Below, one piece after another: positions 1,292-61,433 of a DNA stretch of 64,000 bases. The notes under the pieces were generated by a model. The model saw only the letters and a list, made by a program, of their open reading frames with translations, ran no database searches and had not been told where the DNA came from. The DNA comes from Haematobia irritans (lineage: Eukaryota > Arthropoda > Insecta > Diptera > Muscidae): the NCBI RefSeq assembly GCF_050003625.1, contig NC_134397.1, forward strand, positions 192,903,063-192,967,062. Direction: 5' to 3'. Both the position numbers and the translations under genes were made by a program. How positions within the stretch are numbered: the stretch's first letter is position 1; each line of letters begins with the position of its first letter.

Positions 1292-3382
1292 AGATGTGAT
1301 TTTGATTAAATTGCTAAAAAAATACTTTGTCTATAAAAAATTTTATTTATAAATGCTTAATTTTGCCAAAATTGTTTATAAAGAGAATTTTTTTATAAAC
1401 ATTTAATTTTGACCAAAATTTAAAAAAAAATAAACAATACAAATTTGACCAAATTTGTTCATAGAAATAATATTTCCACGACATGTAAATATTTATAAAT
1501 ATTTATGTTTTTTATATTTTAAAGATACAATTTTAAACTTAAAGATGCGGTAAGAGTTTATTACATTAAAATTTTGAAGTTGATCTTGCAGCTCAAAAAC
1601 TTTTTGGGGAATTTTGTGCGGAGTTTTAATGTTAAATGATAATTTTTGTGGACGAAAGCGTCCTAATTTGGGAATAGGAGTCTGAAAAATATTGACAACA
1701 CTGAATAAGAGGATTCTGAGATTTAAGTTATCTCCACACATTTTTGTCGCTGAGCAAAAATATTTTTTTGTATAAATTGTATAATTTGAAGAAATTGAAT
1801 TGTGAAATTGAAGAAACTTGATTAGAAATAACGACACTTTTTCTGTTGTTTAAAAAAATGTCATACATTCAAGGAAAGAATTGGTATTAATAATTGTTAA
1901 AATTCTTTTAGTGCAATACTAATAATATTTAACTCATCTTATGAAATTATGAATATAATTTAAATAAAATTTACTAATTTTAGAAAATATGAGTTATTTA
2001 CTTCATGTCATAAAAGTAAAAAATAATCAAACTAAGGATAGTTAATTCTAAACATTTTTGTCATTTGAGCAAAAAAAAAATATTTTCTTACATTTGTATT
2101 GGTAATAATTTATATCAACTACCCATAAAATTAACTAAGATCGTGTTCGTTTCGTAAACAATATGTTGCCTTGGTATTACAACACTTTTTTCCTAATTTT
2201 ATTTTCGCCCAAATGATAGTATCATTCCAAAGTTAATGTTAATTCATACTATTGTGAGGGATACAGGATCCCAAATCTATAGCAGTGTCGTTTATATTTT
2301 GCAATAAATTTCGAAATCGCCAAAAATGTATATAATGTGATTTAATAAATTTAATTAACCTAATACTCTAGTGACAAATATTTTTATCTTCATCATTAAA
2401 CAAACTTCAACAACAAAATATCTCACACTTTTAGAAATAATAACCAATAAATTTGGTTTGGACAAATACTCTTTGTTATTATTTTATTTTAGTTATAAAT
2501 TAGGAAGTTATAATTTTTTTTACGTTAAAAGTAATATATCAAAATAATGACACAAAGACTGGTAACATTTCGAAAACACAATGTTTTATTATCATTTGGT
2601 CGTAAATGATAAATTTAATATCAAAAATAAAAGTTTTGTAGTGCCCTTGAATAATGATAACATTTGACTACTGACGCCTATCGAATGGGAAACAGGTGTA
2701 AAATCAAAACAAACTTTTTATGTATACAAAAGATTGTACTAAGTCCATCATAATGGGTTCGCTATTCTACAAAATTCATTATGAATTTCGAGTGGTGATA
2801 ACAATTATAGGAAATAAGTGGCATGAAGAAGAAACTGTATATGTTAAACAAAACCTGTCGAAAAAGTATTTTCGTATTTTGTTAATAGATGTCGATCGGC
2901 TCGCTCATCTTCAGTGGGGGATATTTCGAACTCTGATCAGAATAATAAATCAGGAAACGGATGCAGGATTTTGTAATGTTGCCCCCTCTTCTGCGTATGA
3001 TGAATATGTTTCATATGGACATGCTGACCGAAATTTCATTTTTATTTCTCGAGTCGATTTTCTTAGGATAAAAATTCGACTATTCTTTGTATCCATAATA
3101 AATACTGATTGGATGATAGTTTGATCGTCTTGATTTTGTGTTATGAAATCTTGATTTTGTAACTCTCAAATTGTCATAACAATTATTATAATTATTACGG
3201 ATTTCTTAAAGCAGACGCCTATTTCATTACTTTTTGTTCATAAAATCTTGTATTGGGGATGTATTGGGGATTTTTGTGAGGACTTTTAACTTAAATTTGG
3301 GATTTTAGAGAAATACGATTTGGGGACGCAACACTGGGCGGAAAACCTCAGATTCTAGCCGTGATAAGCAAAGTGGAATAGA
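1292..3382. other. AT-rich stretch, no gene recognised
   Basis: This is AT-rich sequence. One open frame at 2720-3124 (134 codons, plus) has no recognisable domain, no clear splice or promoter context and no family match known to me, so it is not called as a gene. The phrase GGGGATT recurs near 3254-3325 and the segment ends GGGGACGCAACACTG, which looks like the outer end of a hAT-type element, but no partner end was found. Confidence 0.5.
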
Positions 3383-8784: not shown

Positions 8785-9826
8785 TGAAAAAAGGAATTTC
8801 GTGTTTTGATAAAATACTGTTTTCTGAAGGGAAAAACTACGGTGGAAGCAAAAACTTGGCTTGATAATGAGTTTCCGGACTCTGCCCCAGGGAAATCAAC
8901 AATAATTGATTGGTATGCAAAATTCAAGCCTGATGAAATGAGCACGGAGGACGGTGAACGCAGTGGACGCCCGAAAGAGGTGGTTACCGACGAAAACATT
9001 AAAAAAATACACAAAATGATTTTGAATTAACGTAAAATGAAGTTGATCGAGATAGCAGAGGCCTTAAAGATATCAAAGGAACGTGTTGGTCATATCATTC
9101 ATCAATATTTGGATATGCGGAAGCTCTGTGCAAAATGGGTGCCGCGCGAGCTCACATTTGACCAAAAACAACAACGTGTTGATGATTCTGAGCGGTGTTT
9201 GCAGCTGCTAACTCGTAATACACCTGAGTTTTTCCGTCGATATGTGACAATGGGTGAAACATGGCTCCATCACTACACTCCTGAGTCCAATCGACAGTCG
9301 GCTGAGTGGACAGCGACCGGTGAACCGTCTCCGAAGCGTGGAAAGACTCAAAAATCCGCTGGCAAAGTAATGGCCTCTGTTTTTTGGGATGAGCATGGAA
9401 TAATTTTTATCGATTATCTTGAGAAGGGAAAAACCATCAACAGTGACTATTATATGGCGTTATTGGAGCTTTTTAAGGTCGAAATCGCGGCAAAACGGCC
9501 CTATATGAAGAAGAAAAAAGTATTGTTCCACGAAGACGACGCACCGTACCACAAGTCATTGAGAACGATAACAAAAAATTACGAATTGGGCTTCGAATTG
9601 CTTCCCCACCCACCGTATTCTCCAGATCTGGCCCCCAGCGACTTATCTTGTTCTCAGACCTCAAAAGGATGCTCGCAGGGAAAAAAATTGGCTGCAATGA
9701 AGAGGTGATCGCCGAAACTGAGGCCTATTTTGAGGCAAAACCGAAGGAGTACTACCAAAATGGAATCAAAAAATTGGAAGGTCGTTATAGTCGTTGTATC
9801 GCTCTTGAAGGGAACTATGTTGAATA
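8785..9826 (+). pseudogene. Himar1 mariner transposase, inactive
   Basis: This is a near-full-length DD34D mariner transposase with long blocks identical to Himar1. Defects: the start region is deleted (GTGAAAAAAGGAATTTCG, no ATG), a TAA stop at 9028-9030 falls between the two N-terminal helix-turn-helix segments, a frameshift lies just after the third catalytic Asp near 9643, and the first catalytic Asp is replaced by Gly (TMGETW instead of TMDETW, codon 9253-9255). The second Asp (in FHEDDAP, codon 9535-9537) and third Asp (PYSPDLAPSD, 9640-9642) remain. The WVPREL linker and YSPDL motif are visible. The last residues (GNYVE) are followed by unrelated sequence from about 9827. It cannot make active enzyme. 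Confidence 0.95.
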
Positions 9827-9990
9827 CGAGCAACATATTAGATGCGGGAGCAACATATTAGATGTGAGCAACATATTAGATGTGAAGCGATGGTCAGAAT
9901 GTCTGTGCCACATGCAGAAGGTCATGAGTTTAATCCCGAACTCGGAAAAATTTGCAAAAAAAAAATATAGGCGGGAGCAACTGTGGTGCA
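9827..9990. repeat. Short tandem repeats at broken Himar1 3' end
   Basis: GAGCAACATATTAGATG occurs three times between about 9829 and 9883. The normal Himar1 3' untranslated region and 3' inverted repeat are absent from this point. The stretch ends with GGGAGCAACTGTGGTGCA, a partial match to the SINE head that follows immediately. Confidence 0.6.
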
Positions 9991-10335
9991 GGGAGCCACC
10001 GTGGTGCAATGGTTAGCATGCCCGCCTTGCATACACAATGTCGTGGGTTCGATTCCTGCTTCGACCGAACACCAAAAAGTTTTTCAGCGGTGGATTATCC
10101 CACCTCAGTAATGCTGGTGACATTTCTGAGGGTTTCAAAACTTCTCTAAGTGGTTTCATTGCAATGTGGAACGCCGTTCGGACTCGGCTATAAAAAGGAG
10201 GTCCCTTGTCATTGAGCTTAACATGGAATTGGGCAGCGCTCAGTGATAAGAGAGAAGTTCACCAATGTGGTATCACAATGGACTGAATAGTCTAAGTGAG
10301 CCTGATACATCGGGCTGCCACCTAACCTAACCTAT
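9991..10335 (+). mobile_element. tRNA-derived SINE (full length)
   Basis: The head has tRNA-like pol III boxes: an A-box-like 'TGGTGCAATGGTTAGCATG' at about 10002-10020 and a B box GGTTCGATTCC at about 10047-10057. The body includes TTCAGCGGTGGATTATCCC and CGCCGTTCGGACTCGGC, and the 3' end is CCACCTAACCTAACC. Three other copies or fragments lie at 26265, 51998/52480, 52660 and 55272. It sits inside the composite Himar1 element. Confidence 0.85.
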
Positions 10336-36024: not shown

Positions 36025-36896
36025 AAGGGTGGTTAAATTGTAAGGGCCGATGTTGAATGCGAACCACACCTAAACGACAAGTTTTTTTCCGAATTTTATT
36101 TGACATTTCGCTATTTCAGACTCACTCAAATTGAACCATGGGGAGATACACAATCCAACAACGTGTTAAATGGTTCCAAGAAATTGCAACAGTGGATGAT
36201 CAATTTTCGAAGAAAATCATCTTCAGTGATGAGGCACATTTTCACCTCAGTGGATTCGTCAATAAACAGAATTGCCGCATTTGGGCGAATGAGAATCCAA
36301 GAGTGATTGTCGAAAAACCAATGCACCCACAAAGAGTGACTGTTTGGTGCGGTTTATGGACATCATCGGGCCGTATTTTTTCCCAAATGAGGCCGATCAG
36401 GCAGTTACTGTGAATGGTGTTCGCTATCGTGAGATGATAACGAACTTTTTATGGCCCGAATTGGAAGATATGGATGTGGACGATATGTGGTTTCAACAGG
36501 ACGGTGCCACTTGCCACACAGCTAACGAAACAATGGCTCTTTTGCGCAACAAATTCAATGGCCGTGTTATCTCACGTAATGGCGATGTCAATTGGCCGCC
36601 AAGATCATGTGATTTGACACCGTTGGACTTTTTTCTTTGGGGTTATTTGAAAGAAAAGGTGTACGTCGATAAGCCAGCAAAACTTCAAGAGCTAAAGGAT
36701 GAGATAATTCGGCACATTAACGGCATAGAACCTCAATTATGCCACCGAGGTCGCGGCGCCCATTTGGCTGATATTTTGTTCCATACATAATTGAGTAATA
36801 CCAATATATCATAATAAAATAAAATTACAATAATTTCCTAAATAGTTTGTGTTTTATTCAAAATCAACATCGGCCCTTGAAATTTTAACCACCCTT
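36025..36896 (+). mobile_element. DD41D (rosa-like) Tc1/mariner element, internally deleted
   Basis: Inverted ends AAGGGTGGTTAAATTGTAAG and its complement ending CCACCCTT share about 30 bp including GGGCCGATGTTGA. TA dinucleotides flank both ends (36023-36024, 36897-36898) and the interrupted family A unit is restored across them. The element is 872 bp. Confidence 0.9.
36138..36789 (+). pseudogene. DD41D transposase, DNA-binding domain deleted, frameshifted
   Basis: The frame opens MGRYTIQQRVKWFQ and then jumps to DDQFSKKIIFSDEAHFHLSG, so nearly all of the N-terminal DNA-binding region is missing. The catalytic triad remains: Asp in FSDEAHF, Asp in WFQQDGATCHTA, and Asp in CDLTPLDFF. Counting residues, 41 lie between the second and third Asp, which defines the DD41D (rosa) type. 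A frameshift near 36400 separates the first and second catalytic blocks. It cannot encode a working transposase. Confidence 0.9.
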
Positions 36897-40181: not shown

Positions 40182-41460
40182 AAGGGTGATACGGTCATAA
40201 TTTGGTCAAGGGAAAACGCGTGTAAATCGGTGAAATCGTTTATTTAAAAAAACAAATTAAATTTCTTTTTCCAGTTCAATTAGTATAAAATTCAGGAAAA
40301 ATATTCAGTTAGGCTTTCGCTTTTCCAAATCCGAATTGCCGGGCCTCACGCTTAACACCTGCCATCAGATTTTGGACAGCCACCTTGTCCACCTTCTTCG
40401 CCGCAGAAAGCCAGTTTGCCTTGAACTGCTGCTCGTCCTTAGCAGGTTCCGCTTGACAATAGTCCAGTATTTCTCAATTGGGCGGAACTCTGGCGTGTTG
40501 GGAGGGTTCTTGTCCTTGGGAACCACCTGCACGTTGTTGGCGGCGTACCACTCCATGACTTTTTTACCGTAATGGCAATATGCCAAATCCGGCCAAAACA
40601 GTACGGAACAACCGTGTTTCTTCAGGAAAGGCAGCAGACGTTTATTCAAACACTCTTTCACGTAAATTTCTTGGTTGACAGTCCCGGAAGCTATGAAAAT
40701 GTTGCTTTTCAAGCCACAGGTACAGATGGCTTGCCAAACCAGATATTTCTTTGCGAACTTTGACAGTTTTATGTGCTTGAAAATATCTGCTACCTTTCCC
40801 CTTCCTTTTGCCGTATAAAACTCCTGTCCCGGAAGCTGCTTGTAGAAGGCTTTGACGTAGGTTTCGTCGTCCATTACCACGCAGTCAAACTTCGTCAGCA
40901 TCGTCGTGTACAGCCTCCGGGATCGCGCTTTGGCCGTCGTATTTTGTTTATCATCGCGATTTGGAGTCACTACCTTCTTGTAAGTCGATAGTCCGGCTCG
41001 GTTTTTGGCTCGATGCACGGTTGTAGACGATACACCCAGCTTATTTGCGGCATCTCGGAGAGAGAGGTTAGGGTTTCGCTTGAAACTACCGGCAACTCTC
41101 TTTGTCGTCTCAGCGGCTTCCGGATTTCTATTTCCCCCCGATCCAGACTTCCTGGTTGTCGACAAACGTTCCCCAAACACTTTAATTACATTTGTAACGG
41201 TTGATTTGGCAACTTTTAGCGATTTTGCCAGCTTTGCGTGCGAGTAGCTCGGTTTTTTGCGATGCGTGAGCAAAATTTTGATACACTGCTCTTCTAGCTT
41301 GGACGGCATTTTGACAACTGAAGAGTGAATTCCAAAATCAAAATAGAAGCAACATTCTACACACACACCTTCAAAGTGAGGGGTGTTCAGGGTTTTTTAA
41401 TGCAAAATTGAAAGAAATACGTCATGTTTATATTGACCAAATTTTGACCGCATCACCCTT
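40182..41460 (-). mobile_element. ITmD37E-type Tc1/mariner element, near complete
   Basis: Inverted ends AAGGGTGATACGGTCATAATT and, on the other strand at 41460, AAGGGTGATGCGGTCAAAATT are about 28 bp long. TA flanks both sides (40180-40181 and 41461-41462), and removing the element restores the family A terminal hairpin. The 1279-bp length is that of a full element. Confidence 0.92.
40309..41309 (-). pseudogene. DD37E transposase, one frameshift
   Basis: The start is taken at 41309 (MPSKLEEQ), the family-typical start, although the frame is open upstream to 41366. Residues about 20-110 form the N-terminal helix-turn-helix DNA-binding region (SHAKLAKSLKVAKSTVTNVI). The triad is Asp in VVMDDETY (about 148), Asp241 in FWPDLAYCHYG and Glu279 in PIEKYW, with 37 residues between the last two, defining the DD37E (ITmD37E) group known from mosquitoes and other insects. 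After about residue 290 a one-base loss shifts the frame, giving a stop at 40365; the proper C-terminus (KKVDKVAVQNLMAG...FGFGKAKA) continues in the next frame to TAA at 40309. The neighbouring DINE-like element is its insertion site. Confidence 0.92.
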
Positions 41461-43959: not shown

Positions 43960-44785
43960 CGTGATTTTTCTATGATTGGGGAATATAGATCGATACGGAC
44001 CAATTTTGGCATGGTTGTTATCGGCCATACACTAGCGAAATGTACCAAATTTCAACCGGATCGAATTAATTTTGCTCCTTCAAGAGACTCCGCAAGCTAA
44101 ATCAGGGAATCCGTTTATATGGGGGATATATATAATTATGGACCGATGTAGACCAATTTGTGCATGGTTGTTAGAGACCATATACTCGCACCACGTAACA
44201 AATTTCAACCGAATCGGATGAAATTTGCTTATCTTAGAGGCTCCGCAAGTCAAATCTCGGGATCGGTTTATATAGGGGCAATATATAATTATGAACCGAT
44301 GTGCACCAATTTTTGCACGGTTGTTAGAGACTATATACCAACACCATGTTACAAATTTCAACCGAATCGGATGAAATTTGCTTATCTTAGAGGCTCCGCA
44401 AGTCAAATCTCGGGATCGGTTTATAAGGGTGCCACATATAATTATGGACCGATGTGGACCAATTTTTGCATGGTTGTTAGAGACCATATACCAACACTAT
44501 GTACCAAATTTCAGCCGGATCGGATGAAATTTGCTTCTCTTCGAGGCTCCGCAAGCCAAATCTGGGGATCGGTTTATATGGGAGCTATAAGTAAAAGTGA
44601 TCCGATATGGCCCATTTGCAATACCATCCGACCCACATCAATAACAACTACTACGGACGGACATGCTTAGATCGACTCATAATTTTACCACGACCCAGAA
44701 TATATATACTTTCTGGGGTCTGAGAGCAATATTTCGATGTGTTACAAACGGAATGACAAAGTTAATATACCCTGGTGGGTATAAA
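43960..44785 (+). mobile_element. Family A DINE-like element, 3' portion
   Basis: Five 153-bp units are followed by a 3' block in which the stretch before GGACGGACATGC is deleted (ACAACTACTACGGACGG, missing the GTTTCAAGTCGATAGC region). It ends CCTGGTGGGTATAAAA. Confidence 0.75.
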
Positions 44786-44805
44786 AACATAATTTAAAAA
44801 TTTTA

Positions 44806-44990
44806 ACATTCACAAAAAAATATTTTTGTTTTCAATCGCGAAATTAATCCAATAAATTTTATTTTATAATTAAATGTCTTCTATCACAGAAATGAAAGTC
44901 AATATAATTAATTTTTGTGATTGACTTTTGTTTCGGATCACCGCTACGATGGTGATCCGAAACAAAAGTCATGGTTTCGTTAAGTCGAGG
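44806..44990 (-). mobile_element. AATT-type MITE, rearranged
   Basis: TTTTCAATCGCGAAATTAATCC and CTATCACAGAAATGAAAGTC identify the family. The right half is replaced by a perfect inverted repeat (44922-44971). Confidence 0.65.
44922..44971. repeat. Perfect 21-bp inverted repeat with 8-nt loop
   Basis: Arm TGACTTTTGTTTCGGATCACC is followed after GCTACGAT by its exact complement. Confidence 0.9.
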
Positions 44991-45126: not shown

Positions 45127-45132
45127 TTTATT
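45127..45132 (-). terminator. Polyadenylation signal AATAAA for 45149-45295
   Basis: AATAAA on the minus strand begins 17 nt after the stop codon at 45149, a normal distance for a short 3' untranslated region. Confidence 0.65.
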
Positions 45133-45148
45133 TGAGTATTTCACGATT

Positions 45149-45295
45149 TTAAAAAGGCATTCTTGGTGGTGGATTGGGATTATAAGGTCCAGTGCTACTT
45201 GGTGGCCAGCGACCACGGTTTCCGCCAATGCCAGCAGCGGCTGATCCAATAAAGAGTAAAATAGCGCAAACTTTGGTAAGAATTTTAAAATTCAT
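45149..45295 (-). CDS. Secreted proline-rich cationic peptide, metchnikowin-like candidate
   Basis: This 48-codon intronless frame is too short for usual gene finders. Residues 1-21 form a signal peptide: basic Lys4 and Lys8, a hydrophobic core VCAILLFIGSAAA, and an AAA cleavage site before Gly22. The predicted mature peptide (22-48, 27 residues) starts GIGGNRGRW and ends NPNPPPRMPF. It contains eight Pro, five Gly, three Arg and no acidic residue or Cys, so it is cationic and probably unfolded. Size, charge and the C-terminal NPN-x-P-...-P-aromatic pattern resemble Drosophila metchnikowin (26 residues), an antifungal peptide secreted by the fat body. Support also comes from the TATA box, initiator, 29-nt leader, AATAAA signal and upstream kappaB and GATA sites. 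A different proline-rich secreted peptide is possible. Homology to metchnikowin is inference from pattern, not alignment. Confidence 0.75.
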   Translation of the reverse strand: MNFKILTKVCAILLFIGSAAAGIGGNRGRWPPSSTGPYNPNPPPRMPF

Positions 45296-45320
45296 CTTTA
45301 ATGCGGACTGTTCGAAGACA

Positions 45321-45358
45321 AACTGATGCCAGCTAGAGCATCGATTGTATTATTTATA
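45321..45358 (-). promoter_or_regulatory. Core promoter: TATA box and initiator
   Basis: On the minus strand TATAAATA (45358-45351) is followed by the initiator TCAGTT (45326-45321), the consensus insect initiator, with its A at 45324, 34 nt from the first T of the TATA box. The inferred leader is 29 nt, ending ATTAAAG before ATG. Confidence 0.7.
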
Positions 45359-45414
45359 CTGTTTACGAATATCGGTGTTAAAAAATGTGTAATTCACCCA
45401 AAAATGCTTCTAGC

Positions 45415-45420
45415 AGATAA
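45415..45420 (+). promoter_or_regulatory. GATA site AGATAA
   Basis: AGATAA lies about 57 bp upstream of the TATA box and 10 bp from the nearer kappaB-like site. In Drosophila immune genes GATA factors (serpent) act together with NF-kappaB sites. Confidence 0.5.
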
Positions 45421-45429
45421 TAGAACTCG

Positions 45430-45439
45430 GGGGATTTTT
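45430..45439 (+). promoter_or_regulatory. kappaB-like site GGGGATTTTT
   Basis: It fits the Relish-type consensus GGGRAYYYYY at all positions. It lies about 72 bp upstream of the TATA box of the peptide gene. Confidence 0.6.
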
Positions 45440-45483
45440 GCAAATATTTATTTACTTGTGCATACAGTTCACCGTGGTGGTCC

Positions 45484-45489
45484 TTATCT
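45484..45489 (-). promoter_or_regulatory. GATA site (TTATCT on plus)
   Basis: AGATAA on the minus strand, 9 bp from the second kappaB-like site. Confidence 0.5.
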
Positions 45490-45497
45490 CTTTAGTT

Positions 45498-45507
45498 GGG
45501 GATTTTT
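45498..45507 (+). promoter_or_regulatory. Second kappaB-like site GGGGATTTTT
   Basis: It is identical to the first kappaB-like site and in the same orientation, 68 bp further upstream. A weaker GGGAATTATC at 45646-45655 overlaps another TTATC. Confidence 0.6.
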
Positions 45508-45559
45508 TGTATGTGATACAATAATATTCATTGCTCCAAAAACAAAAGTAAACATTGGA

Positions 45560-46078
45560 GAGTTAGGTGACAAATTGGGGAAACTGCAGGTCAAATCATT
45601 TCATTAAAACCAAAAAAATAACAGATATAATTATGAATATGCATTGGGAATTATCGTAGAAGGTATATTACCTTCTTGTCGTCTTTCTACAATCCATTTA
45701 TTAAACCTTTTGGCAAAATATTTTCCCGCCATTTATGGTCTTGACCATGACCTAGACTTTGGACATACACTATTTATGTGCATATGGTTAAGTGGTTAAC
45801 CGCACACACATGGTTAATTTACCTTGTTTATGTGTTCATTCTTTCTACCTTTCGTGCAAGGGCTATTAGAAACGCTTTCATGGTGGAAACTATTGTAAGG
45901 TTTCCCATACATTGAGGACATTTAAGTATATATTTTGATTTTATAGCTAGTAAGAGGAATTCTCGATTCGAGTACCAAAAATCGAATCCGATTAACCTAT
46001 AAAATGTCCAGTAATTAGATATCCGAGAAACAAAAATATCTAACATTAGGTTCCATCCAATAAGAAATTAGCAAAAAC
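45560..46078. other. Non-repetitive region upstream of peptide gene
   Basis: No gene or repeat recognised; it may hold distal regulatory sequence. A small inverted motif, GTTAAGTGGTTAACCGC, is near 45787. Confidence 0.4.
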
Positions 46079-47567
46079 AAGTATATACGGCAGTGATGCC
46101 CAATGCAATAGTATTGGTGAGAGCGACGAAATAACACTTGAAGAAAAGATTTTTCTATTCATTTTATTCAGTCGTCAACGAGATAGCGACGAAAGCACAT
46201 GTGTGGCGGGTGTCGTCATTTTAAAATTTTAAAATTTTGGTAGATTATTTTTTTTTTTGTGTGACTGGGGATCGGCTATATATAACTATGGGCCGATATG
46301 AACCAATTCTGGCATGGTTGTTGGAGACCATATACTAACACCACGTACCAAATTTCAGCCGGATCGGATGAAATTTGCTTCTCTTTGAAGCTCCGCAAGC
46401 CAAATCTGGTGATCGGTTTATATGGAGGCTATATAATTATGGACCGATGTGGACCAATTTTTGCATTTTTGTGTGACTAAGGATCGGCTATATATAACTA
46501 TAGACCGATATGGACCAATTTTGACATGGTTGTTAGATACCATATACTAACACCGCGTACTAAGTTTCAACCGAATCGGATGAATTTTGCTCCTCCAAGA
46601 GGCTCCGGAGGTCAAATCTGGGAATCGGTTTATATAAGGGCTATATATAATTATGGACCGATATGAACCAATTCTGACGTGGTTGTTGGAGACCATATAC
46701 TAACACCACGTACCAAATTTCAGCCGGATCGGATGAAATTTGCTTCTCTTTGAGGTTCCGCAAGCCAAATCTGGGATCGATTTATATGGGGGCTATATAT
46801 AATTATGGACCGATGTAGACCAATTTTTGCATGGTTGTTAGAGACCATATACCAACACCATGTAAAATCTGCATGGTTGTCAGAGACCATATACCAAATT
46901 TCAGCCGGATCGAACGCAATTTGCTTCTCTTTAAGGCTCCGCAAGCCAAATCTGGGATCGGTTTATATGGGGGTTATATAATTATGGACCGATGTAGACC
47001 AATTTTTTCATGGTTCTTAAAGACCATATACCAACACCATGTACCAAATTTCAACCAGATCGGATGAAATATGCTTCTCTTAGAGGCTCCACAAGCCAAA
47101 TCTGGGGGTCCGTTTATATGGGGGCTATATATAATTATGGACCAATGTAGACCAATTTTTGCATGGTGGTTAGAGACCATATACCAACACCATGTACCAA
47201 ATTTCAGCCAGATCGGATGAAATATGCTTCTCTTAGAGGCTCCACAAGCCAAATCTGGGGGTTCGTTTATATGGGGGCTATACGTAAAAGTGAACCGATA
47301 TGGCCCATTTGCAATACAATCCGACCTACATCAATAACAACTACTTGTGCCAAGTTTCAAGTCGATAGCTTGTTTCGTTCGGAAGTTAGCGTGAGTTCAA
47401 CAGACGGACGGACGGACGGACGGACGGACGGACGGACATGCTTAGATCGACTCAGAATTTCACCACGACCCAGAATATATATACTTTATGGGGTCTTAGA
47501 GTAATATTTCGATGTGTTACAAACGGAATGACAAAGTTAATATCCTATAGTGGAGGGTATAAAAATA
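46079..47567 (+). mobile_element. Family A DINE-like element, rearranged 5' end
   Basis: It opens ACAAGTATATACGGCAGTGAT, where the usual CGTAAGTTCGGCC palindrome is replaced by other sequence (CAGTGATGCCCAATGC to 46205). From 46255 there are about eight 153-bp units, then the longest (GGAC)n tract of the window (47402-47437), TATATATACTTTATGGGGTC and a shortened final hairpin (CCTATAGTGGAGGGTATA). Confidence 0.75.
47402..47438 (+). repeat. (GGAC)n microsatellite in family A
   Basis: About eight to nine GGAC units, against one to four in other copies (6711, 30020, 40040, 44653). Confidence 0.9.
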
Positions 47568-48180: not shown

Positions 48181-48220
48181 AGCATTCTCCCGCAGTGTTG
48201 TTAGATTAGGGGATTTTTCT

Positions 48221-48304
48221 CCATACAGGGGATTTCTTCTCGTTGTTGGGTATATTTTTTCACCATACAGGGGATTTCTTCTCGTTGTTGGGTATATTTT
48301 TTCA
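48221..48304 (+). repeat. 42-bp tandem duplication
   Basis: CCATACAGGGGATTTCTTCT and CGTTGTTGGGTATATTTTTT are repeated exactly once, at 48221 and 48263. Confidence 0.9.
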
Positions 48305-53086: not shown

Positions 53087-54155
53087 TACCAACCTTCAAA
53101 TGATTCGTGTTAAAATTTGACGTCTGTAAATCAATTAGTTTGTGAGATAGACCGTCTTTTGTGAAACAACTTTTGTTATTGTGAAAAAAAAATGGAAAAA
53201 AGAATTTCGTGTTTTAATAAAATACTGTTTTCTGAAGGAAAAAAATACGATGGAAGCAAAAACTTGGCTTGATAATGAGTTTCCGGACTCTGCCCCAGGG
53301 AAATCAACAATAATTGATTGGTATGCAAAATTCAAGCGTGGTGAAATGAGCACGGAGGACGGTGAACGCAGTGGACGCCCGAAAGAGGTGGTTACCGACG
53401 AAAACATCAAAAAAAATCCACTAAATGATTTTGAATGACCGTAAAATGATGTTGATCGAGATAGCAGAGGCCTTAAAGATATCAAAGGAACGTGTTGGTC
53501 ATACCATTCATCAATATTTGGATATTGGGAGGCTCTGTGCAAAGTGGGTGCCGCGCGAGCTCACATTTGACCAAAAACAACAACGTGTTGATGATTCTGA
53601 GCGGTGTTTGCAGCTGTTAACTCGTAATACACCCGAGGTTTTCCGTCGATATGTGACAATGGATGAAACGCTGAGTGGACAGCGACCGGTGAACCGTCTC
53701 CCAAGCGTGGAAAGACTCAAAAGTCCGCTGGCAAAGTAATGGCCTCTGTTTTTTGGGATGCGCATGGAATAATTTTTATCGATTATCTTGAGTAGGGAAA
53801 AACTATCAACAGTGACTATTATATGGCGTTATTGGAGCGTTTGAAGGTCGAAATCGCGGCAAAACGGCCCCATATGAAGAAGAAAAAAAGTGTTGTTTCA
53901 CCAAGACAACGCACCGTACCTCAAGTCATTGAGAACGATGGCAAAATTTCTTGAATTTTTATTCGAATTGCTTCCCCACCCACCGTATTCTCCAGATCTG
54001 GCCCCCAGCGACTTTTTCTTGTTCTCTGATCTCAAAAGGTCATTATAATCGTTGTATCGCTCTTGCAGGGAACTATGTTGAATAATAAAAACGAATTTTG
54101 AAAAAACAAAAATGTGTTTTTCTTTGTTAGACCGGGGATTTATCAGCCAACCTGT
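53087..54155 (+). mobile_element. Himar1 mariner, 5' end lost
   Basis: Homology with the 8615 element begins at CAACCTTCAAATG.TTCGTGT, inside the 5' untranslated region, so the left inverted repeat is missing. The right inverted repeat (54128-54155, ending TTATCAGCCAACCTGT) is the true 3' version and is followed by TA. Confidence 0.92.
53192..54086 (+). pseudogene. Himar1 transposase, inactive second copy
   Basis: A methionine codon is present at 53192 but one base is missing after it, putting the rest out of frame. Later defects: frameshift near 53410-53420, about 45 bp lost right after the first catalytic Asp (TMDET), a TAG in place of Lys near 53793, a frameshift near 53890 before HQDN, and about 105 bp lost after FFLFSDLKR. 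The Asp of TMDET and of PYSPDLAPSDFF are intact at sequence level. Compared with the 8615 copy it keeps the first Asp, so the two decayed independently. Confidence 0.92.
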
Positions 54156-60000: not shown

Positions 60001-60444
60001 TTCAAATGTATAGCTGATTAGTTGATATTGAATAAAAATCTTCCATCGATAATCTTATGGACTTCAGTTACGATCAACAAGCAAGGTTAATGGTTGGACC
60101 TTCTGTATATAATACAAAAATATAGAGGAAAGAAGAAACCAAGCAAACCCCCTCAAAGACATTGTTTATCAATTAGCAGTTACATATGCAAACAGAAAGA
60201 AACCAAACCAATAAGAGAAACAAATCGAAAAATTTACAACATAGTTTGTAAATTAACAGAAAAAAAAGAAACCGCTCGAAAACACACAGACACACTGAAA
60301 TTAAAAATATATGGTGTACATCTAGATAATGCATAAATCTGGGGGAAATTTTGTGAAAATGTGAGAACCAAAAAGAAATTCATAGTATTAAATTTCAGAC
60401 ACACTGTTATTCATACTATGATTATTTTCACACACTTCAACTTA
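60001..60444. other. Start of intron downstream of coding exon
   Basis: On the minus strand this follows the splice donor at 60445. No further exon was recognised between here and the peptide gene at 45.3 kb. Confidence 0.5.
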
Positions 60445-60446
60445 CC
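60440..60446 (-). promoter_or_regulatory. Splice donor G|GTAAGT
   Basis: GGAG|GTAAGT is a full consensus donor. It leaves the reading frame in phase 1. Confidence 0.8.
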
Positions 60447-60788
60447 TCCTGATTGACGTAAACCAGCACTATTTGGTGGTGTAACACTAGAACTCATAGC
60501 AATCGTTGATGAAGATGTTTGCTGTTGCTGCTGCGGCTGTGACTGCTGTTGTTGATGCGTGGACGACCCTATATTTAATGAAGCCGAACTTTGACCCAAA
60601 TGTCCCACAGAAGCTGGAACACTGCTGGATTGTTGTGACTGTGTTTGGGTTTGAGCCATAGGGGTGGGTGAATCTGTACCCCCAGTCGATGATACATGGC
60701 CATGATAACTGCCTATACGTATGGGTGTACTGGTTCCACTAGACATTATATTACTATGCGAACCCGATTTTGATGAACTCTGAGCCAT
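60446..60788 (-). CDS. First coding exon, Ser/Gln-rich protein
   Basis: The exon starts ATG with the insect-like context GCAATGGC at 60788 and ends at a consensus donor after 114 codons plus one base. The peptide begins MAQSSSKSGSHSNIM and includes GTSTPIRIGSYHGHVSS, TDSPTPMAQTQTQSQQ, a glutamine stretch HQQQQSQPQQQQQ, and SVTPPNSAGLRQSGG. It is Ser, Thr, Gln and Gly rich, with no fold expected, as found at the N-terminus of many insect regulatory proteins (transcriptional co-regulators, RNA-binding proteins, kinases). Composition is far less AT-biased than its surroundings and no repeat is present, supporting a conserved host exon. I cannot name the gene. CAG/CAA mixture encodes the Gln tract. 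Confidence 0.85.
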
Positions 60789-61433
60789 TGCAATTTAAAA
60801 TGAGTTGTACACCTTAATTGAGTTTTACACGATTATTGTGTTTAACTTTTTTTTTTAATATATGTTTTTTTACTAAAATTATAGTAATCAGTATTGTATT
60901 TTAAAATTATCCAAAATCTATGCACACTTCTCTCAATGGGGGTTTTGTAATTCTTGTGCTTCCTGCTTTCTTTATTGATTTATTTTCACAATCACCACAA
61001 AATATATTCGTTGTACAGATATACGATGATTAGGTTTTTTTTTACTATTTTCATTAGCTGCTCCTCTCGATTAGGAAAGATTTTGTTTTGCATTTAGTGG
61101 AGCAACGCAAGCATAGGGATCGATTATTAACAAATGCCTATGATATTTTCTTTTGCTTACAATTCTAAATTGTTCTAATTAAAAGCCACAATTGAATGGG
61201 GAAAAATATTCTATATCACTCAGAGCATGTCATCGGTTGATTTGGCAGAAGCAGCAGTGGTGTTTGGACTTCGTCATCAAAAAATGCTTGTTTTACAACC
61301 ACCAATACCATATATTTTTGCTATTTATTTTTTTCTTGCTTTGCTCCCCGAATACTTGGACAGACCGCATATGGCGGTAGGCAAACAATATTATTAAAAG
61401 ACAGCTAACGTAACACGTATCCAACGAGCGACT
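60789..61433 (-). other. Probable 5' untranslated region
   Basis: Non-repetitive sequence upstream of the exon. It contains several short upstream ATGs and no evident splice sites; a non-coding first exon further up is equally possible. Confidence 0.45.

Follow-up and report, generated by a model that had tools for sequence, protein, structure and literature searches.

A putative LSer-PRP4-type gene of Haematobia irritans, predicted to encode a secreted proline-rich immune peptide

Four proline-rich peptides (PRPs) of the blow fly Lucilia sericata have been identified by transcriptomics (PMC11678341; PMC7194015), and two of them are reported to be strongly induced by septic injury (PMC7194015). 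As a group, the LSer-PRPs are described as having moderate activity against E. coli and P. aeruginosa; PRP2 and PRP3 alone, at up to 100 uM, are described as showing no activity against E. coli or M. luteus, and both are said to bind DnaK with neither a block of protein synthesis nor, when acting alone, permeabilisation of E. coli, while stomoxyn raises the activity of PRP2 (PMC7194015). The main text of that DnaK paper makes no mention of PRP4, the sequence of which is given as SWIKKDKFPSSTGPYNPNPPPPRF in Table 3 of PMC11678341, citing Poppel et al. (2015). The name Lser-PRP4 and the strings GPYNPNPPP and STGPYNPN occurred, in the literature searched, in PMC11678341 only. As far as the openly readable literature goes, the LSer-PRP4 type has so far been described only from L. 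sericata, and we saw no muscid LSer-PRP4 there; subscription papers (Poppel et al. 2015) and supplements lie outside that scope, and an earlier report in them is possible.

The genome papers of the house fly (PMC4195910) and the stable fly (PMC7944917) list attacins, cecropins, defensins, and diptericins, and both report metchnikowin, drosocin, and drosomycin as absent. As described there, the antimicrobial peptide (AMP) screens used homology and known-family profiles, supplemented in the stable fly by a degree of manual annotation.

We analyzed a stretch of 64,000 nucleotides of H. irritans DNA (the window; C1:192903063-192967062 in a 1.17-Gb assembly of 181 contigs). On its minus strand, an ATG-start, intronless frame of 48 codons with a stop codon runs from 45295 to 45149 and translates into MNFKILTKVCAILLFIGSAAAGIGGNRGRWPPSSTGPYNPNPPPRMPF (48 aa). 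The first 21 codons (45233..45295, minus strand) form a signal-peptide-like leader that has a K close to its N-terminus and a hydrophobic stretch, ending in SAAA with A at -3 and -1 and with G following the AAA of the cleavage context; the call is made by inspection of hydrophobicity and of the (-3,-1) residues. The predicted mature peptide, GIGGNRGRWPPSSTGPYNPNPPPRMPF, occupies the remaining 27 codons (45152..45232, minus strand), consists of 30% P and 19% G, and has a computed pI of 11.7, a charge of about +2.8, and a mass of 2907 Da. Thus everything that the original prediction had said of the frame is present: 48 intronless minus-strand codons, a signal-like start, an AAA site, and a 27-residue cationic Pro-rich tail. 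One of the 266 ATG ORFs of 35-120 aa in the window passed our filter for small secreted Pro-rich frames, a crude filter that we devised once the candidate was known; 60 Markov-1 random windows gave 0.1 such frames on average. A secreted-like leader by itself is common (21 ORFs in the window vs a random mean of 12.8).

The mature tail shares 13 consecutive identical residues with LSer-PRP4 (local score 80), and no shuffled sequence scored as well in either 2000 or 100,000 shuffles. This core, PSSTGPYNPNPPP, is encoded at 45164..45202 (minus strand). When the tail was compared with all 24 insect Pro-rich peptides that Table 3 of PMC11678341 lists, LSer-PRP4 came far first (z = 8.9, the next being 3.7); the second-best of the 24 was lebocin 3 (score 43, 8 of 2000 shuffles as good), and LSer-PRP4 alone stands out clearly across the 24 comparisons. 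Outside the core, the residues of the two mature sequences largely differ. The features that define the LSer-PRP4 type, namely the core in a short cationic peptide with about 29% Pro, are both found in the candidate, although the type rests on the mature part of a single known sequence, so that the candidate is compared with one relative. LSer-PRP4 type, not metchnikowin, should be the correct label as far as the sequences indicate. A word search of a protein database, from which flies may be missing, returned no candidate with three common 5-residue words, and a PDB search with the peptide gave no match at E <= 10.

The TATA box, initiator, 29-nt leader, and AATAAA that had been proposed for the gene were all located by motif match on the minus strand, with consensus sequences for kB, GATA, Inr, DPE, and TATA as given in PMC11116330. 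The TATA box TATAAA lies at 45353..45358 (first base 45358 = -34), and the initiator TCAGTT (consensus TCAKTY) at 45321..45326, with its A at 45324. This A is the predicted TSS, from which the 5' leader of 29 nt (45296..45324) leads to the start codon. The AATAAA poly(A) signal is at 45127..45132, its first base 17 nt past the last base of the stop codon and slightly outside the range first proposed for the gene. Two kinds of element are additions to the original prediction: two kB/GATA modules, and a DPE match AGATG (consensus RGWYV; +28..+32, 45293..45297) that overlaps the start codon. Of 202 initiators in the window, 14 have a TATA box and only one, that of the candidate gene, has both a TATA box and a DPE; the mean number of such trios in the 60 random windows was 0.1.

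Many insect immune genes are reported to have a GATA motif near a kB motif (PMC11116330), and by motif matching the proximal promoter of the candidate has the kB motif with a nearby GATA motif that characterizes kB-controlled genes of this kind. The first kB motif, GGGGATTTTT (GGGRAYYYYY; 45430..45439, plus strand), is 9 bases from a GATA motif AGATAA (45415..45420, plus strand); the second kB motif has the same letters (45498..45507, plus strand) and is 8 bases from another AGATAA (45484..45489, minus strand). A GATA-linked kB pair within 200 bases occurs once in the real window and in none of the 60 random windows. Strict kB matches number nine in the window, including three at 48209-48279, where three kB-like motifs lie inside a short tandem repeat; a second immune gene at this trio was rejected, since no credible frame for a short secreted Pro-rich peptide was seen there. 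Of the 13 attacin-family matches in the genome (a lower bound), 12 are given as loci, and with 1.5-kb flanks, beyond which some of the promoters may fall, 4 of these 12 have a strict kB match, which is about the density of the window. The attacin loci list six kB sites, five of them distinct (L014 and L015 overlap), and within these flanks no GATA motif lies within 20 bases of a kB motif at any of the 12. The kB motifs of the Mibin-type gene described below (L003) likewise have no GATA motif within 20 bases. Because of these two controls and the kB trio that lacks a convincing gene, the kB evidence is softened. Judged from motif matching only, NF-kB control of the candidate gene is likely.

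We consider it quite probable that 45295..45149 (minus strand) is a functional gene of the LSer-PRP4 type whose product is a secreted proline-rich immune peptide. Most likely the product is an unexceptional defence peptide, induced on infection and of a kind already known, not a new metchnikowin. By analogy with its LSer-PRP relatives, from which the proposed mechanism is carried over, infection would activate an NF-kB factor (Relish or Dif), which, acting in fat body or epithelium jointly with a GATA factor, would switch on the TATA/initiator/DPE promoter. The intronless mRNA of about 0.2 kb would then be translated, and signal peptidase would cleave after AAA. The released 27-residue cationic peptide may enter microbes beside pore-forming peptides, where the Pro-rich core could bind an intracellular target such as DnaK. 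Induction, secretion, the cleavage point, antimicrobial activity, and the target of the peptide are all inferred in this scheme. That the core is identical in two fly families is a hint that a specific target constrains it.

The alternative that fares best is that the candidate encodes an immune-induced secreted peptide with a regulatory rather than microbicidal role, as proposed by likeness to IbinA and IbinB, which are reported to be short, to have predicted signal sequences, to be NF-kB-controlled, and to lack bactericidal activity in vitro (PMC12882233). The inactivity of LSer-PRP2 and PRP3 alone on two bacteria would fit such a role. However, the composition and charge of the candidate fit a Pro-rich antimicrobial peptide, it does not align with LSer-PRP1/2, and it has no Mibin motif (RPxTLPP[NQ]RPxxP[ND]F at the C-terminus; PMC12882233). 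The similarity to LSer-PRP1 and LSer-PRP2 is at chance level (1084 and 1330 of 2000 shuffles as good, respectively). Using LSer-PRP2 as query against the H. irritans genome, we found a match at C5:3144770-3144847 (E = 1.5e-5, 77% over 26 residues; L003), where the frame 1677..1498 (minus strand) of this locus encodes MNFLNLIAFAVFAFMAFTLRVTQAGSTFGSNPISRPSRPQTLPPNRPVPPDFNGPRQRF, a 59-aa precursor with the Mibin motif. Upstream of this frame are the kB matches GGGAATTCCC, GGGGATTTTT, and, further away, GGGGACTTTT, so that the set includes the same GGGGATTTTT as the kB motif of the candidate. Mibin and the LSer-PRP1/2 type thus seem to form a single family. A Mibin identity of the candidate was rejected, since the candidate does not have the motif and the Mibin-type gene of this genome resides separately on contig C5. 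A regulatory role for the candidate therefore seems to us unlikely, if still worth keeping in mind. LSer-PRP3 as query gave no match in the H. irritans genome, a negative result that lacks a positive control.

That the candidate is a genuine orthologue of metchnikowin, or one so diverged that recognizable sequence is lost outside P[FY]NPN, is improbable. The two share a small secreted design and a Pro-rich cationic tail, with PYNPN in one and PFNPN in the other; LSer-PRP4 itself scores above most shuffles against metchnikowin (score 44, 16 of 2000 as good), a small profile comparison with the metchnikowin pair gave P = 0.0039, and Mtk-like sequences in other Brachycera are mentioned by Hanson et al. 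2019 (PMC6857651). However, the similarity between the candidate and metchnikowin is limited to seven residues around P[FY]NPN and is not significant (score 35, 243 of 2000 shuffles as good), and hhalign of {candidate, LSer-PRP4} against {metchnikowin, LSer-PRP3} returned a probability of 8.6% over 9 columns, the second pair of this comparison not being significantly alike in itself (154 of 2000 shuffles as good). Metchnikowin matches PF08105 (Antimicrobial10) at 2.9e-15, whereas neither the candidate nor LSer-PRP4 does, and for these two the Pfam scan returned no family at E <= 10, in a scan that filters out the majority of matches with E above about 0.1. Metchnikowin is also, as noted above, reported absent from the house fly and stable fly in their genome papers (PMC4195910; PMC7944917). 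Membership of the metchnikowin family was rejected on Pfam PF08105, shuffles, and profile comparison. The NPN pattern, which had been taken as a mark of metchnikowin, is not diagnostic because LSer-PRP3 has it too and abaecins and lebocins carry it as FNPK; FNPN or FNPK is found in several other Pro-rich peptides. That the candidate and metchnikowin share an ancestor in the very distant past is conceivable. Of the original prediction, then, a small intronless gene for a secreted Pro-rich peptide stands, very probably that of an immune effector, and the kinship with metchnikowin finds no support in the shuffles or in Pfam.

The search of the peptide against the H. irritans genome that the original prediction had called for returned one strong match, the candidate locus itself (match counts in this assembly are lower bounds). 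A second copy at another locus (L002, E = 0.9) was rejected, since that locus has no similar ATG frame of at least 30 aa. The promoter stretch 45340-45640 matched only itself in the genome at E <= 0.001, in a search that skips very common words. Nine of the 13 attacin-family matches lie on C1, at 35.8-35.9, 142.1-142.2, and 255.1 Mb vs 192.95 Mb for the candidate, and none is on C5, the contig of the Mibin-type gene; an AMP cluster around the candidate was rejected for the attacin family, no member being near. The presence of attacin-family matches and of a Mibin-type peptide is consistent with the genome of a higher fly.

In the self-comparison of the window, repeats reach 44913 and resume at 46254 (all 62 rows of the region), and the candidate thus sits in about 1.3 kb free of window-internal repeats, apart from a hairpin that matches its own complement. 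This hairpin (44922-44971) is a perfect 21-bp inverted repeat with an 8-base loop (TGACTTTTGTTTCGGATCACC), about 180 bases past the stop codon of the candidate, and may be what is left of a small transposon. A repeat family of the window, whose copies have an internal offset of about 153 bases, occupies 43981-44803, 46254-47565, and other places, and its long open frames (...SQIWGSVYMGAIYNYGPMWTNFC...) are probably meaningless. By eye, broken or partial Mariner/Tc1-like transposase frames are seen at 40365-41396, 36126-36790, 53135-53739, and 9031-10016, and the long frames near the candidate are transposase-like or repeat-derived. A Gln/Ser-rich open frame at 60411-60794 (minus strand) resembles a host-gene exon. 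A decayed or chance frame without function, which AT-rich and repeat-rich surroundings might lead one to expect, is highly improbable against the open frame, the promoter trio, and an exact 13-residue core common to a fly of another genus.

If the candidate is a functional gene of the LSer-PRP4 type, a PRP4 core conserved outside Lucilia would mean a further Pro-rich peptide common to calyptrate flies, one that screens by homology and known-family profiles can miss, and the 13-residue core would serve as a handle for finding peptides of this type elsewhere. We would go further only tentatively: the core may mark a separate, strongly conserved calyptrate Pro-rich family that fills the slot of metchnikowin in Drosophila and whose members were missed since their genes are under 60 codons; its unvarying core would then act on a single conserved target, either in the microbe or in the host. 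A PRP4 core outside Lucilia would leave the list of known mechanisms unchanged; what is new here is a further LSer-PRP4 relative, the kind itself being already known.

Among the known systems, metchnikowin (Drosophila; PF08105) resembles the candidate as a small secreted Pro-rich peptide of similar length with P[FY]NPN and a C-terminal aromatic residue, but differs in the N-terminal half, and both a significant alignment and a PF08105 match are absent for the candidate. LSer-PRP3 and the P-rich peptides of Calliphora vicina (PMC5344439) are likewise described as Pro-rich with PFNPN near the C-terminus; LSer-PRP3 differs in that only 8 residues align with the candidate (score 33, 315 of 2000 shuffles as good). 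Mibin, LSer-PRP1, and LSer-PRP2 are also short secreted Pro-rich fly peptides with kB motifs near the gene, but the candidate is without the C-terminal motif of Mibin. LSer-PRP4 differs from the candidate in its N-terminal arm (SWIKKDKF vs GIGGNRGRWP in the candidate) and in its tail (PRF vs RMPF), whereas the two have in common the whole 13-residue core, a C-terminal F, an aromatic residue one or two places ahead of the core, and the make-up of a short cationic peptide (24 aa, 29% P, and pI 10.0 in LSer-PRP4; 27 aa, 30% P, and pI 11.7 in the candidate).
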